Shown: in pieces, positions 13,492 to 29,023 of the stretch
Layout: each line of letters begins with the position of its first letter
Position numbering within the stretch: position 1 is the first letter of the stretch
Assembly: GCA_016235245.1 (NCBI GenBank)
Contig: JACRLO010000010.1
Location: 1-57,807 of the forward strand
Direction of reading: 5' to 3'
DNA: 57,807 nt
From: Nitrospirota bacterium
GTDB taxonomy: Bacteria > Nitrospirota > Thermodesulfovibrionia > Thermodesulfovibrionales > UBA6898
Notes under the pieces: model-generated
Databases searched by the model: none
Told to the model about the DNA's origin: nothing
Seen by the model: only the letters and a program-made list of their open reading frames with translations
Position numbers and translations under genes: made by a program

Positions 13492-13926
13492 CTATTCCAC
13501 CTTTTTCAAAGGTGCTCCGCAGGAGCATTTGCCCGGGTTGACCGAAACCGTATTGCATTTGCAGTCAGGCCCGCAGCTGCAGGCATACTTGCCCTTGAGC
13601 GGATATTCCTTCACCTTATAATTGCAGCCGCATTTTGTATTGTCCTTCGGATCGAATGCACAGGGGCATTTGTCGTCATCGCACTTGCAGAGGTAGATCT
13701 TGTCCTTCTCCCTGTCGATCCGGATCACCTTTCCCTTTGCAAGGGCAAGACCGCAGTCGCAGCTGCCCGGCTCAAGATAGGGCGACGGGCAGGGGCATCC
13801 CTCTTCACAGTCGCAGAAGTATACGTCAGCCCCTTTTGCTGCCGTGTTTGCTGTCCATGACGCAGTAGCGGTCAGTCCGATTGCCATCGCAAGCATGAGT
13901 GCTGTTTTGAAGAAGACTGTTTTCAT
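13492..13926 (-). CDS. Secreted Cys-repeat protein, three C-x-C modules
   Basis: Exported protein of 144 residues with a signal peptide (about 1-26, TALMLAMAIGLTATASWTA). The mature chain has 18 cysteines in three modules of the form C-x-C-x(3,4)-C-x-C-x(9)-C-x-C. The first is CDCEEGCPC...CDC, the second CKCDDDKCPC...CGC and the third CSCGPDCKC...CSC. The spacing suggests binding of soft metal ions, as in metallothioneins, in the periplasm; this is inference. A two-module paralog lies at 28646 and shares the ending NPGKC-x-CGA-x-LKKV. Its start overlaps the stop of the GT2 gene by 4 nt (ATGA), so it is the last gene of the acyl/MMPL operon. Strong match to any named family: none that I know. 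Confidence 0.82.
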   Translation of the reverse strand: MKTVFFKTALMLAMAIGLTATASWTANTAAKGADVYFCDCEEGCPCPSPYLEPGSCDCGLALAKGKVIRIDREKDKIYLCKCDDDKCPCAFDPKDNTKCGCNYKVKEYPLKGKYACSCGPDCKCNTVSVNPGKCSCGAPLKKVE

Positions 13927-14606
13927 TTCGCACCTCCGAAGATGGTTAATTTCAAAAAGAGAATGCTGATCCGGTAAAAGTCCCGGACCGGCCGGAAGTT
14001 AGTCGTATAATCGCGGTGATAGATCGCCGATACCGGCACGCAACATATCCTGAACCCTGCCTTCCCCGCCTTGATCAGTAGCTCAGTTTCTGTCTCAAAG
14101 CCGGTCGTCTCGATCTGCACCGTCTCCAGCACCTCCCTCCGGTAAAGGCGGAAGCCTGACTGCGTATCCTCGATCCTGCAGCCTGCCGCCTTTGATATGC
14201 AGAATATGCCGATCTGGTTCGGGATATAGCGATAAAGCGGTATTGCCGCCCGATCCCAGAGCCTTGTTCCTATTATTATATCACCTTTATCGGCCGCAAA
14301 TGCCGCAAGAAACGTTGCAATTTCGGCAGGTGCATGCTGGCCGTCGCCGTCAATCGTTATAACTGCAGCATAACCCTGTTTGAGTGCATGGCTGATCCCG
14401 GTCCTGAGCGCCATGCCTTTGCCGCAGTTCCTGTCATGTCTGATGACATGAGCGCCTGATCTTTTCGCCACCGCTTCAGTGGCATCTTCTGATCCGTCGT
14501 CAACCACAATGATGTCGGCGATCATCCCCCGAACGCCTGCGATCACGTCACCGATTCTCTTTTCTTCGTTAAAGGCCGGGATTATACAGCAGATTGGTTT
14601 GTTCAT
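13923..14606 (-). CDS. Family 2 glycosyltransferase (polyprenyl-phosphate sugar transferase type)
   Basis: GT-A glycosyltransferase of 227 residues. It begins CCIIPAFNEEKRIGDVI, has a VVDDGSEDAT nucleotide-binding motif, the DGDGQH metal motif, and ends without the membrane helices of full DPM1-like synthases. The closest general type is dolichol- or undecaprenyl-phosphate mannose/glucose synthase. It overlaps the MMPL gene by 4 nt at its start and the Cys-repeat gene by 4 nt at its end. Placement in an acyl-carrier/MMPL operon suggests that it adds a sugar to a lipid or acyl product, which is inference. Confidence 0.85.
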   Translation of the reverse strand: MNKPICCIIPAFNEEKRIGDVIAGVRGMIADIIVVDDGSEDATEAVAKRSGAHVIRHDRNCGKGMALRTGISHALKQGYAAVITIDGDGQHAPAEIATFLAAFAADKGDIIIGTRLWDRAAIPLYRYIPNQIGIFCISKAAGCRIEDTQSGFRLYRREVLETVQIETTGFETETELLIKAGKAGFRICCVPVSAIYHRDYTTNFRPVRDFYRISILFLKLTIFGGAK

Positions 14607-23455: not shown

Positions 23456-23908
23456 ATGATAACGCTCAAGGTCAACGGAAAAACGCATTCACTCGAAATC
23501 AGCCCTGAATCATCCCTGCTCTGGACGATCAGAGACCATCTTAAACTCACCGGTACGAAATTCGGCTGCGGCAAAGGGCTCTGCGGCTCCTGCACGGTGC
23601 ATGTGGACGGCAAGGCTGAACGCTCATGCCAGATGACCGTAGGTGATGCGCAGGGGAAGAATATAACTACCATCGAGGGCATACCTGAGGGACACCCTCT
23701 CAAAAAGGCATGGGTAAAGGAACAGGTGGCACAGTGCGGATACTGTCAGCCCGGCCAGATTATGCAGGCAGCTGAACTTCTGGCCAAAGACAAGAACCCT
23801 TCTGAGGCAAAGATTATAAAGGCCATGGACGGCAACCTCTGTCGCTGCGGCACGTACCCGAGGATAAAGAGCGCCATTATCCTTGCTGCAAAGGAGGGTC
23901 AAAAATGA
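23456..23908 (+). CDS. iorA: Two-[2Fe-2S] subunit of a molybdenum hydroxylase, IorA-like
   Basis: Small iron-sulfur subunit of 150 residues. The N-terminal plant-ferredoxin-type cluster uses the cysteines of FGCGKGLCGSC and a later SC. The C-terminal helical cluster uses CGYCQPGQ and CRCGTY. It passes electrons from the molybdenum cofactor of the partner subunit to an acceptor. The partner gene overlaps its stop by 4 nt. The two-subunit layout without a FAD subunit is that of isoquinoline 1-oxidoreductase/aldehyde oxidoreductases, which usually work in the periplasm. AGGAGG precedes the ATG. Confidence 0.9.
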   Translation: MITLKVNGKTHSLEISPESSLLWTIRDHLKLTGTKFGCGKGLCGSCTVHVDGKAERSCQMTVGDAQGKNITTIEGIPEGHPLKKAWVKEQVAQCGYCQPGQIMQAAELLAKDKNPSEAKIIKAMDGNLCRCGTYPRIKSAIILAAKEGQK

Positions 23909-26070
23909 GCTCATCCATAACACGCAGGACCTTCATCAAGATAGCAGGATTGACCATAGCGGTCGTGGCAACGCCCTCAGAATTTGACATCCTGTGGGGG
24001 GCAAAGGCCCAGGCAGAGATGACGAAGGGGCTCAGCGCAGGCGTCTGGATTCAGATCACGCCTGAAAACAGCGTTATCGTTACGGTGAACAAGTCGGAGA
24101 TGGGGCAGGGCATCTATACGGCCCTGCCGATGATTGTGGCGGACGAGCTTGAGGCCGACTGGAAGCAGGTGAAGTTCGAGGTGGCGCCTGCAGGCGATCA
24201 ATACAAGGACCCTGTATGGGGTGCTCAGGCAACAGGAGGGAGTTCGAGCATCAGGCATATGTATGAACCGCTCAGGAAGGCTGGTGCGGCGGGCCGTGAG
24301 ATGCTGGTGGCTGCAGCAGCAGAGATATGGAAGGTGCCTGCTGGAGAGTGCGAGGCGAAACTGGGAGCGGTCGTGCATGGTCCGAGCAAGCGTTCGCTTA
24401 CCTACGGTGAGCTTGCGGTGAAGGCTGCTGCTGTTGCTCCAGCCAAAGAGCCGAAGCTGAAGAAAGAGAACCAGTTCAGATACATCGGCACCAGTATGCC
24501 GAGACTCGATATTCTGGAGAAGACCGACGGCTCTGCAAAGTTCGGCATTGATACCATGGTGCCGGACATGCTCTATGCTACGGTTTCGCGGCCGTACAAC
24601 TACGGGGCAAAGGTTGAGGTTGTGCATGACGCTGCAGCCAAGAATGTGAAGGGTCTTCAGAAGATCGTCCAGATCGACCGTGGTGTTGCCTTTTGCGCCG
24701 ACACGCTGGAAGCTGCATGGCAGGCGAAAAAGTCGACCCATATTGTCTGGACGCAGGGCATTGATCCTGCCATGACCAATGATACCCTCGAAAAGTCCTT
24801 TGAAACATCTCTGGCGAAAGAGGGCATTGTTGCCCGAAAAAACGGTGATGCTCAAAAGACATTTGCCGATGCCCCTCAGAAGCTTGACCTGAAATATCCC
24901 CTCCCGTACCTCAGTCATGCGACCATGGAGCCGATGAACTGCACTGCCTTTGTGCAGGCAGACCGCTGTGATATCTGGGCGCCGACGCAGAACCAGACCG
25001 GCACACTCATGACCGCAAAGAGGATCACCGGCCTTAAGCCTGAGCAGATCCATGTGCATACGACCTATCTGGGCGGTGGGTTTGGCAGACGGTTCGAACA
25101 GGATTTTGTGGAGGAGGCGGTGCAGACCTCCAAGGCTATCAACAGGCCGGTGAAGGTGATCTGGACGAGGGAAGAGGATTTCCAATATGACTATTTCAGG
25201 CCCGCCAACCTCTCACATATACAGGCTGCGCTTGACGGTAAGGGCAATCTTACTGCATGGTCGCATAAGATCGTCTGCCCCTCGATCTTTGCACGTGTAT
25301 TCCCCGCGACGATGAAAAACGGCATTGACAATGCCGCAGTTGAAGGTCTGAGCAACATGGAATATGACATTCCAAATATCTCGGTCGAGTATGTAAGGAT
25401 CGATACGCCTGTGCCGGTAGGGTTCTGGCGTTCTGTCGGCAGTTCCCACAATGCCTTTACCGTAGAGACTGCTATTGACGAGTTGGCGCATATTGCTAAA
25501 AAAGATCCGCTCAAATTCAGGCTGGAACTTCTGGGCAAGCACCCACGGGCGCAAAAAGTCCTTCAGGTGGCTGCAGAGAAGGCCGGCTGGGACAAGAAGC
25601 CTGCAAAGGGCATCGGAAGGGGCATTGCCTATCACCTCTCGTTCGACAGTTATGTTGCCCAGGTGGCTGACATAGAGGTGAATAAAAAAGACGGGACCAT
25701 AAAGGTGAAGAAGATCGTCTGCGCAGTCGACTGCGGCAGCGTAGTAAATCCTGACACGGTGAAGGCGCAGATGATGGGAGGGATCGTTATGGGGCTTTCC
25801 TCTGCCCTGAAAGAGAAAATTGAATTTGCCCGGGGCAAGGTAGTGACCGAGAACTTCGATACGTACCCGCTTCTTACCATGAGCGAGACGCCCGAGATTG
25901 AGGTGCATATCGTGCTGAGCAATGATAAACTGGGCGGCATCGGGGAGCCTGGTGTGCCCCCTGTTGCACCTGCCGTTGCCAATGCGCTCTTTAACGCGAC
26001 AGGGGTGAGGACCAGGACATTGCCGATGACGCCCGAGACGGTCCTGAAGGCGATAAAGGGTAAGGCTTGA
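23905..26070 (+). CDS. iorB: Molybdopterin-binding subunit of aldehyde oxidase / isoquinoline oxidoreductase type
   Basis: Large molybdenum hydroxylase subunit of 721 residues. It begins with a Tat-type signal, TRRTFIKIAG, and an Ala-x-Ala site near KAQAEM, which suggests export in folded form. IorB-type motifs include GQGIYTALPMIVADEL, TYLGGGFGRRFEQDFV and GGIGEPGVPPVAPAVANA, the last containing the catalytic glutamate region. It oxidises an aldehyde or N-heterocycle with water as oxygen source; the real substrate is unknown. It is translationally coupled to the iron-sulfur subunit and followed after 223 nt by xdhC and a mocA-like gene. Confidence 0.9.
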   Translation: MSSSITRRTFIKIAGLTIAVVATPSEFDILWGAKAQAEMTKGLSAGVWIQITPENSVIVTVNKSEMGQGIYTALPMIVADELEADWKQVKFEVAPAGDQYKDPVWGAQATGGSSSIRHMYEPLRKAGAAGREMLVAAAAEIWKVPAGECEAKLGAVVHGPSKRSLTYGELAVKAAAVAPAKEPKLKKENQFRYIGTSMPRLDILEKTDGSAKFGIDTMVPDMLYATVSRPYNYGAKVEVVHDAAAKNVKGLQKIVQIDRGVAFCADTLEAAWQAKKSTHIVWTQGIDPAMTNDTLEKSFETSLAKEGIVARKNGDAQKTFADAPQKLDLKYPLPYLSHATMEPMNCTAFVQADRCDIWAPTQNQTGTLMTAKRITGLKPEQIHVHTTYLGGGFGRRFEQDFVEEAVQTSKAINRPVKVIWTREEDFQYDYFRPANLSHIQAALDGKGNLTAWSHKIVCPSIFARVFPATMKNGIDNAAVEGLSNMEYDIPNISVEYVRIDTPVPVGFWRSVGSSHNAFTVETAIDELAHIAKKDPLKFRLELLGKHPRAQKVLQVAAEKAGWDKKPAKGIGRGIAYHLSFDSYVAQVADIEVNKKDGTIKVKKIVCAVDCGSVVNPDTVKAQMMGGIVMGLSSALKEKIEFARGKVVTENFDTYPLLTMSETPEIEVHIVLSNDKLGGIGEPGVPPVAPAVANALFNATGVRTRTLPMTPETVLKAIKGKA

Positions 26071-28645: not shown

Positions 28646-29023
28646 ATGAAGAAACTGATTCTTATGCTGACGGTTATGGTTATGGTGGCTTTTGTTGCTG
28701 TTTCTTTTGCCGCTTCGAAGTCAAAAATGGACCTGAAGGTAGGCGATGAGATCTATGCCTGTAACTGCGGTGATAGCTGTCCCTGCAAGACCATGGCCAG
28801 AAAAGCAGGTAACTGCTCCTGTGACAAGGAAATGGTGAAGGCCAAGGTGATGAGTATCGATGGCGACAAGGTGATGCTCAAGGCTGACTCGTGGGAGAAG
28901 GAGCGGGCTTTCAAGGCAACCGGTAAATACATATGCGGCTGCGGCGAGGGATGCAACTGCGATACCATCAGTCAGAACCCGGGCAAATGCGGCTGCGGCG
29001 CTAAATTGAAAAAAGTGCAATAG
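28646..29023 (+). CDS. Secreted Cys-repeat protein, two C-x-C modules
   Basis: Exported protein of 125 residues with a signal peptide (about 1-22, ending VSFAAS). It contains two modules of the form C-x-C-x(3)-C-x-C-x(9)-C-x-C: CNCGDSCPC...CSC and CGCGEGCNC...CGC, giving 12 cysteines. Between them is a 30-residue segment (VKAKVMSIDGDKVMLKADSWEKERAFKA) that resembles a small beta domain. It is a paralog of the three-module protein encoded at 13492. A near-perfect ribosome site AAGGAGGTGA suggests strong expression. Soft-metal binding in the periplasm is the likely role, by inference; the partner next door is the tandem NosL-like protein. Confidence 0.82.
   Translation: MKKLILMLTVMVMVAFVAVSFAASKSKMDLKVGDEIYACNCGDSCPCKTMARKAGNCSCDKEMVKAKVMSIDGDKVMLKADSWEKERAFKATGKYICGCGEGCNCDTISQNPGKCGCGAKLKKVQ

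Follow-up and report, generated by a model that had tools for sequence, protein, structure and literature searches.

The window analysed here, a stretch of 57.8 kb, encodes two predicted secreted proteins, P0001 and P0002, that are homologous to each other and carry three and two copies, respectively, of the cysteine module C-x-C-x(3,4)-C-x-C-x(9)-C-x-C. With a probability of about one half, their family is a periplasmic all-thiolate Cu(I) (or other soft-metal) buffer or carrier working with NosL-like proteins. The strongest functional evidence is the gene context, and the NosL link of the family is the new information of this analysis. From sequence and context we infer metal binding itself, copper as the metal, the stoichiometry and the handover to NosL; the module might just as well hold Zn, Cd or Hg or be disulfide-bonded.

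Cysteine modules and their conservation

A first-pass annotation of this DNA had described a metal-binding-like cysteine module, present three times in one secreted protein and twice in a paralogue 15 kb away. Translation of the two ORFs bears out these counts (Table 1), and a six-frame scan of the whole window gave exactly five pattern matches, all inside P0001 and P0002. In 200,000 shuffles of each protein, three matches were never reached by P0001 and two never by P0002. The modules of P0001, whose ORF reads on the minus strand (an addition to the annotation), are CDCEEGCPCPSPYLEPGSCDC, CKCDDDKCPCAFDPKDNTKCGC and CSCGPDCKCNTVSVNPGKCSC, and those of the plus-strand P0002 are CNCGDSCPCKTMARKAGNCSC and CGCGEGCNCDTISQNPGKCGC. 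Each measures 21-22 residues and consists of three C-x-C pairs. All 18 cysteines of P0001 lie in modules, and P0002 has none beyond its 12 conserved ones; they make up 18/144 and 12/125 residues, all in C-x-C pairs. Both N-termini are hydrophobic, as is typical of signal peptides, and the two proteins have in common the C-terminal ending NPGKC-x-CGA-x-LKKV; the signal-like N-termini, the NPGKC-x-CGA part of the ending and the 15-kb separation are all as the annotation had claimed.

Table 1. Positions in the window of the two cysteine-module proteins, their modules and the adjoining genes
Feature	Position	Strand	Remarks
P0001, three-module secreted protein (predicted)	13492..13926	-	144 aa, 18 Cys, no His
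P0001 module 1	13753..13815	-	residues 38-58
P0001 module 2	13624..13689	-	residues 80-101; missing from two-module paralogue
P0001 module 3	13519..13581	-	residues 116-136; C-terminal, with NPGKC-x-CG
Family 2 glycosyltransferase	13923..14606	-	overlaps P0001 by 4 bp (ATGA); same overlap in L106 and L107
Tandem NosL-domain protein, directly upstream of P0002	27653..28537	+	294 aa; PF05573 6.6e-26, two stretches
P0002, two-module secreted protein (predicted)	28646..29023	+	125 aa, 12 Cys, no His
P0002 module 1	28760..28822	+	residues 39-59; loop between model strands 35-38 and 64-72
P0002 module 2	28934..28996	+	residues 97-117; C-terminal tail

Alignment with relatives revealed that P0001 and P0002 are homologous outside the modules too. 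The segment from module 1 to the next strand is common to both (VKAKVMSIDGDKVML in P0002, AKGKVIRIDREKDKIYL in P0001), as is the GKY leading into the last module. The middle module of P0001 aligns to merely a short stretch in the two-module form and corresponds, in the alignment, to an insertion between barrel strands 3 and 4. Conservation is highest in the last module, which reads roughly Y-x-C-x-C-G-x2-C-x-C-x-[TS]-[IVM]-S-x2-PGKC-x-CG-x2-[ML]-K-K-V. Among 12 sequences with 53-73% identity to P0002, none of the 12 cysteines of the two-module protein varies; across relatives, the cysteines are kept and the flanks diverge. Both P0001 and P0002 are under purifying selection, with a dN/dS of about 0.06-0.10 for P0001 against its orthologues in G002 and G003 and of about 0.08-0.19 for P0002 where calculable, the differences per site for both genes being 0.45-0.80 (synonymous) and 0.04-0.22 (non-synonymous).

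Matches to P0001 were found in 25 of 61 relatives. The family profiles matched 26 of 295 genomes sampled evenly from Nitrospirota, and the matching genomes include some that do not belong to the window's class. A pattern scan of 84,980 species, which detects close relatives only and is the sole cross-phylum test, yielded 12 loci, whose labels were without exception Nitrospirae, Nitrospirota, Nitrospiraceae or Thermodesulfovibrionales; the family may also occur beyond Nitrospirota. No family match was obtained in the plasmids, phages and viral contigs searched. Within the searches made, a genome carries at most one three-module gene and at most three intact two-module genes. Single-module or truncated relatives were also seen (L133:7790-8203 and L134:7942-8163), the L133 sequence resembling a three-module gene with a deletion between modules.

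Predicted structure

AlphaFold2 was given P0002 together with 11 relatives. The best of the five models has a mean pLDDT of 83.5, with block means of 92-97 over residues 31-90, and the others reach 68-78, a clear gap that calls for caution. Strands are predicted at residues 35-38, 64-72, 75-80, 87-90 and 95-97. The model suggests for P0002 an SH3/Tudor-like barrel in which module 1 occupies the loop joining the first two strands, the last module forming a C-terminal tail. SH3-like/Tudor barrels match residues 27-92 with Z up to 6.6, where a Z under 8 is no proof of a common fold, and those at the top of the structural comparison superpose with an rmsd of 1.2-2.4 Å over 47-54 residues. With the P0002 model, neither Foldseek nor the viral structure library gave a match at E 0.001, and no metal-binding family was prominent in a structural second look, an absence that excludes nothing. 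The P0001 model is weak (pLDDT 61, too weak for a fold search); it presents the same strand order as P0002 and would place module 2 between strands 76-81 and 105-109.

Gene context and proposed function

The annotation's separate operon contexts hold, P0001 being found with glycosyltransferase and MMPL genes and P0002 with NosL-domain, XdhC and MobA-like genes. The P0002 gene lies 109 bp behind the tandem NosL-domain gene, itself after the XdhC and MobA-like genes, and C-x-x-C-G-M is kept in both NosL domains of the encoded protein, as judged by alignment. In 11 genomes (G000, G001, G002, G003, G004, G005, G006, G007, G018, G020 and G023), a tandem NosL-domain gene of 284-369 codons as called is present 59-428 bp upstream of the two-module gene on the same strand; these genomes are related, and the linked genes are not fully independent observations. 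All 10 of the relatives' ORFs of ~300 codons with two NosL matches in one frame adjoin a two-module gene. The annotation's view of metal-binding-like modules in paralogous secreted proteins is supported by this linkage together with the cysteine conservation.

A Tat-exported molybdenum hydroxylase, accompanied by XdhC and MobA-like genes, precedes the pair in the window and in several congeners. G006, G018, G020 and G023 have other, unrelated genes as outer neighbours; therefore, the conserved unit is the NosL/two-module pair and not the molybdenum genes, and the molybdenum cluster, without which the pair occurs in these four genomes, was rejected as the true partner. The window region 23456-26070 encodes the hydroxylase (721 aa) and a [2Fe-2S] subunit, followed by the XdhC and MobA-like genes. 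This hydroxylase was also discarded as a copper client, the CO-dehydrogenase-type Cu motif AYxCSFR being absent.

About 10 further two-module genes have no NosL neighbour, five of them standing beside dsr-type genes. Five genomes of the genus have a second two-module paralogue near genes of CobB type and dsrMK type (L136, L138, L143, L144 and L145), and in L136 NCBIfam confirmed DsrM, DsrK and DsrC. No upstream regulatory motif common to the family genes was visible, and the apparently conserved neighbours c4, c17 and c80 were set aside as antisense shadow ORFs. Just upstream of one two-module gene (G002 contig C18, L137:5040-5756), we observed a gene for a 238-aa exported protein with the Cys-rich repeats CxCGKDCKCEHC and a C-terminal domain resembling YtkA/FixH by eye; a radical SAM/SPASM gene is found downstream at this locus.

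The three-module gene has no constant partner across genomes. It closes an operon of acyltransferase, FabG, FabZ-like, MMPL and glycosyltransferase genes in the window and in two near relatives. The window segment 13923-19403, conserved in G002 and G003, comprises the acyltransferase, FabG, an 86-aa ORF of ACP size, the FabZ-like, MMPL (HpnN-like) and glycosyltransferase genes, and possibly makes and exports a lipid. Only one of ~25 three-module genes adjoins nosL. In that genome (G158), nosZ, nosD, an ABC ATPase, an ABC-2 permease, SCO1/SenC, a lipoprotein-like NosL, a small ORF, the three-module gene and, 13 bp beyond it, a second NosL all lie on one strand. The nosZ region of G158 (contig C33; L124 and L146) contains cytochrome c genes, SCO1/SenC, a transglutaminase-like gene and two different NosL genes, and the NosD protein carries an N-terminal Fer4_5 part.

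In Paracoccus, NosL binds a single Cu(I) at attomolar affinity, and the likely ligand is the Cys of its C-x-M motif (PMC6530538). It is a Cu(I) chaperone needed for CuZ assembly, with a predicted outer-membrane anchor and facing the periplasm (PMC6530538). Considering that NosL is a Cu(I) chaperone, that the NosL domains of the window keep C-G-M, that the modules are thiolate-only and that the proteins appear to be exported, we favour a role in Cu(I)-thiolate buffering or relay. P0001 and P0002 would be exported to the periplasm, where a small SH3/Tudor-like barrel would bear the two or three modules. As neither protein contains histidine and thiolates are the evident ligands, each module, with its six thiolates, would most likely enclose a soft metal in a small thiolate cluster, Cu(I) being the most probable one. 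The two-module form would most likely buffer or relay periplasmic Cu(I) for the NosL-like protein of the adjacent upstream gene, and the three-module form would probably be a stand-alone holder of the same kind.

NosZ was searched for in the window's genus and family and none was found; NosZ was therefore rejected as the client in the genus, where the copper client is probably not N2O reductase, and the NosL-like protein there may do something else. A more specific proposal, which we regard as rather unlikely, is that, in Nitrospirota that lack nitrous oxide reductase, the tandem NosL-like and two-module proteins act together as a dedicated periplasmic copper relay of two components, which would serve some cuproenzyme or scavenge copper from sulfide.

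The context of the three-module gene, usually changing and without a conserved partner, would also suit a general metallothionein-like sink of the periplasm, detoxifying soft metals (Cd, Hg, Ag, Zn, Cu) without the help of a dedicated partner, and the sub-cut-off matches to Metallothio_PEC and MymT reflect the same kind of cysteine pattern. However, the tandem NosL gene is kept beside the two-module gene in the 11 genomes with differing outer neighbours, and no metal-efflux genes were noticed adjoining the annotated family members, which makes such a sink a doubtful candidate.

The CobB-type and dsrMK-type neighbours of a two-module paralogue in five genomes, with dsrC in at least one, bring to mind a thiol protein of the periplasm that would serve sulfur or redox chemistry (handling of persulfide, sulfide or disulfide) and would not bind metal, and sulfide is probably abundant if these organisms respire sulfur compounds. 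We consider this improbable. The modules have C-x-C triplets in a fixed register and no C-x-x-C redox motif, which is unusual for thiol oxidoreductases; the NosL linkage is at odds with a purely sulfur role, and a third family member was not found in the window's genome. Least probable is a structural, disulfide-rich envelope protein with the modules as disulfide knots in an exported scaffold, for instance for the lipid/MMPL operon of the window: the 4-bp overlap with the glycosyltransferase gene, seen for P0001 in three genomes, and the frequency of disulfides in exported proteins agree with it, but neighbouring C-x-C pairs, of which the modules are built, seldom form stable disulfides with one another, and the lipid/MMPL context was seen in three close genomes only, other three-module genes having other neighbours.

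Comparison with known systems

For P0001 and P0002, nothing above cut-off was obtained in Pfam, NCBIfam or PHROGs, scans of aligned family members gave weak matches only, and a sequence search of the PDB returned nothing below E 0.4. No paper on the family was found in the literature. The first-pass annotation had likewise recognised no named family, and no curated family reaches its cut-off. None of the curated libraries searched has an entry for the family, yet its conservation extends over several families and past the class within Nitrospirota.

Resemblances to HMBD and to ExtJ were not upheld. HMBD (PF19335) has a similar ending, PG-x-C-(x)-x-C-G-(M)-x-L after an aromatic-x-C start, comparable by eye to Y-x-C ... 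PG-x-C-x-CG. However, its signature CPMHP is absent from the family members collected, and hhalign gave a probability of 20% over 15 columns, in the C-terminal half only, where full column shuffles reach 46%, so that the profile comparison is no better than fully shuffled controls. A PF19335 search of the window's own genome gave no match at E 0.001. ExtJ (NF040942) of the Geobacter ext cluster is also a small protein, in which a 24-residue stretch matches over strands 2-3 of the predicted barrel; P0002 scores 20 bits against a cut-off of 52.5.

With NosL (PF05573), the Cu(I) chaperone of nitrous oxide reductase and gene neighbour, the family would share a periplasmic location and presumed Cu(I) binding via Cys. 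Nevertheless, the NosL motif CxxCGM differs from the cysteine modules and P0001 and P0002 are not recognisable as NosL homologues; PF05573 matches the upstream gene and neither of the two proteins. The NosL-like link in bacteria without detectable NosZ suggests NosL-type copper handling beyond N2O reductase. SH3-like/Tudor/KOW barrels resemble the barrel predicted for P0002, which has the cysteine modules placed in a loop and the tail; no sequence relation was found, and the likeness may be only a common arrangement.

The metallothioneins (MymT, SmtA/BmtA, plant PEC, type 2) are likewise small and Cys-rich, with C-x-C motifs and thiolate ligands, the latter putative here, and P0001 and P0002 have the high Cys content in C-x-C motifs expected of metallothioneins. 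The metallothionein models gave no match to P0001; P0002 scored 12.9 bits with Metallothio_2, whose cut-off is 23, and the best E-values among relatives (Metallothio_PEC, 0.0028; MymT, 0.009) are also sub-cut-off. Membership by the Pfam and NCBIfam models was rejected, every score lying under the curated cut-off. Unlike metallothioneins, P0001 and P0002 appear to be exported, contain aromatic residues, are predicted to fold as a barrel and have fixed modules of three C-x-C pairs. The family is best described as a new and unnamed variant of metallothionein-like metal binders, and its exported, barrel-mounted thiolate modules would take the metallothionein idea into the periplasm.
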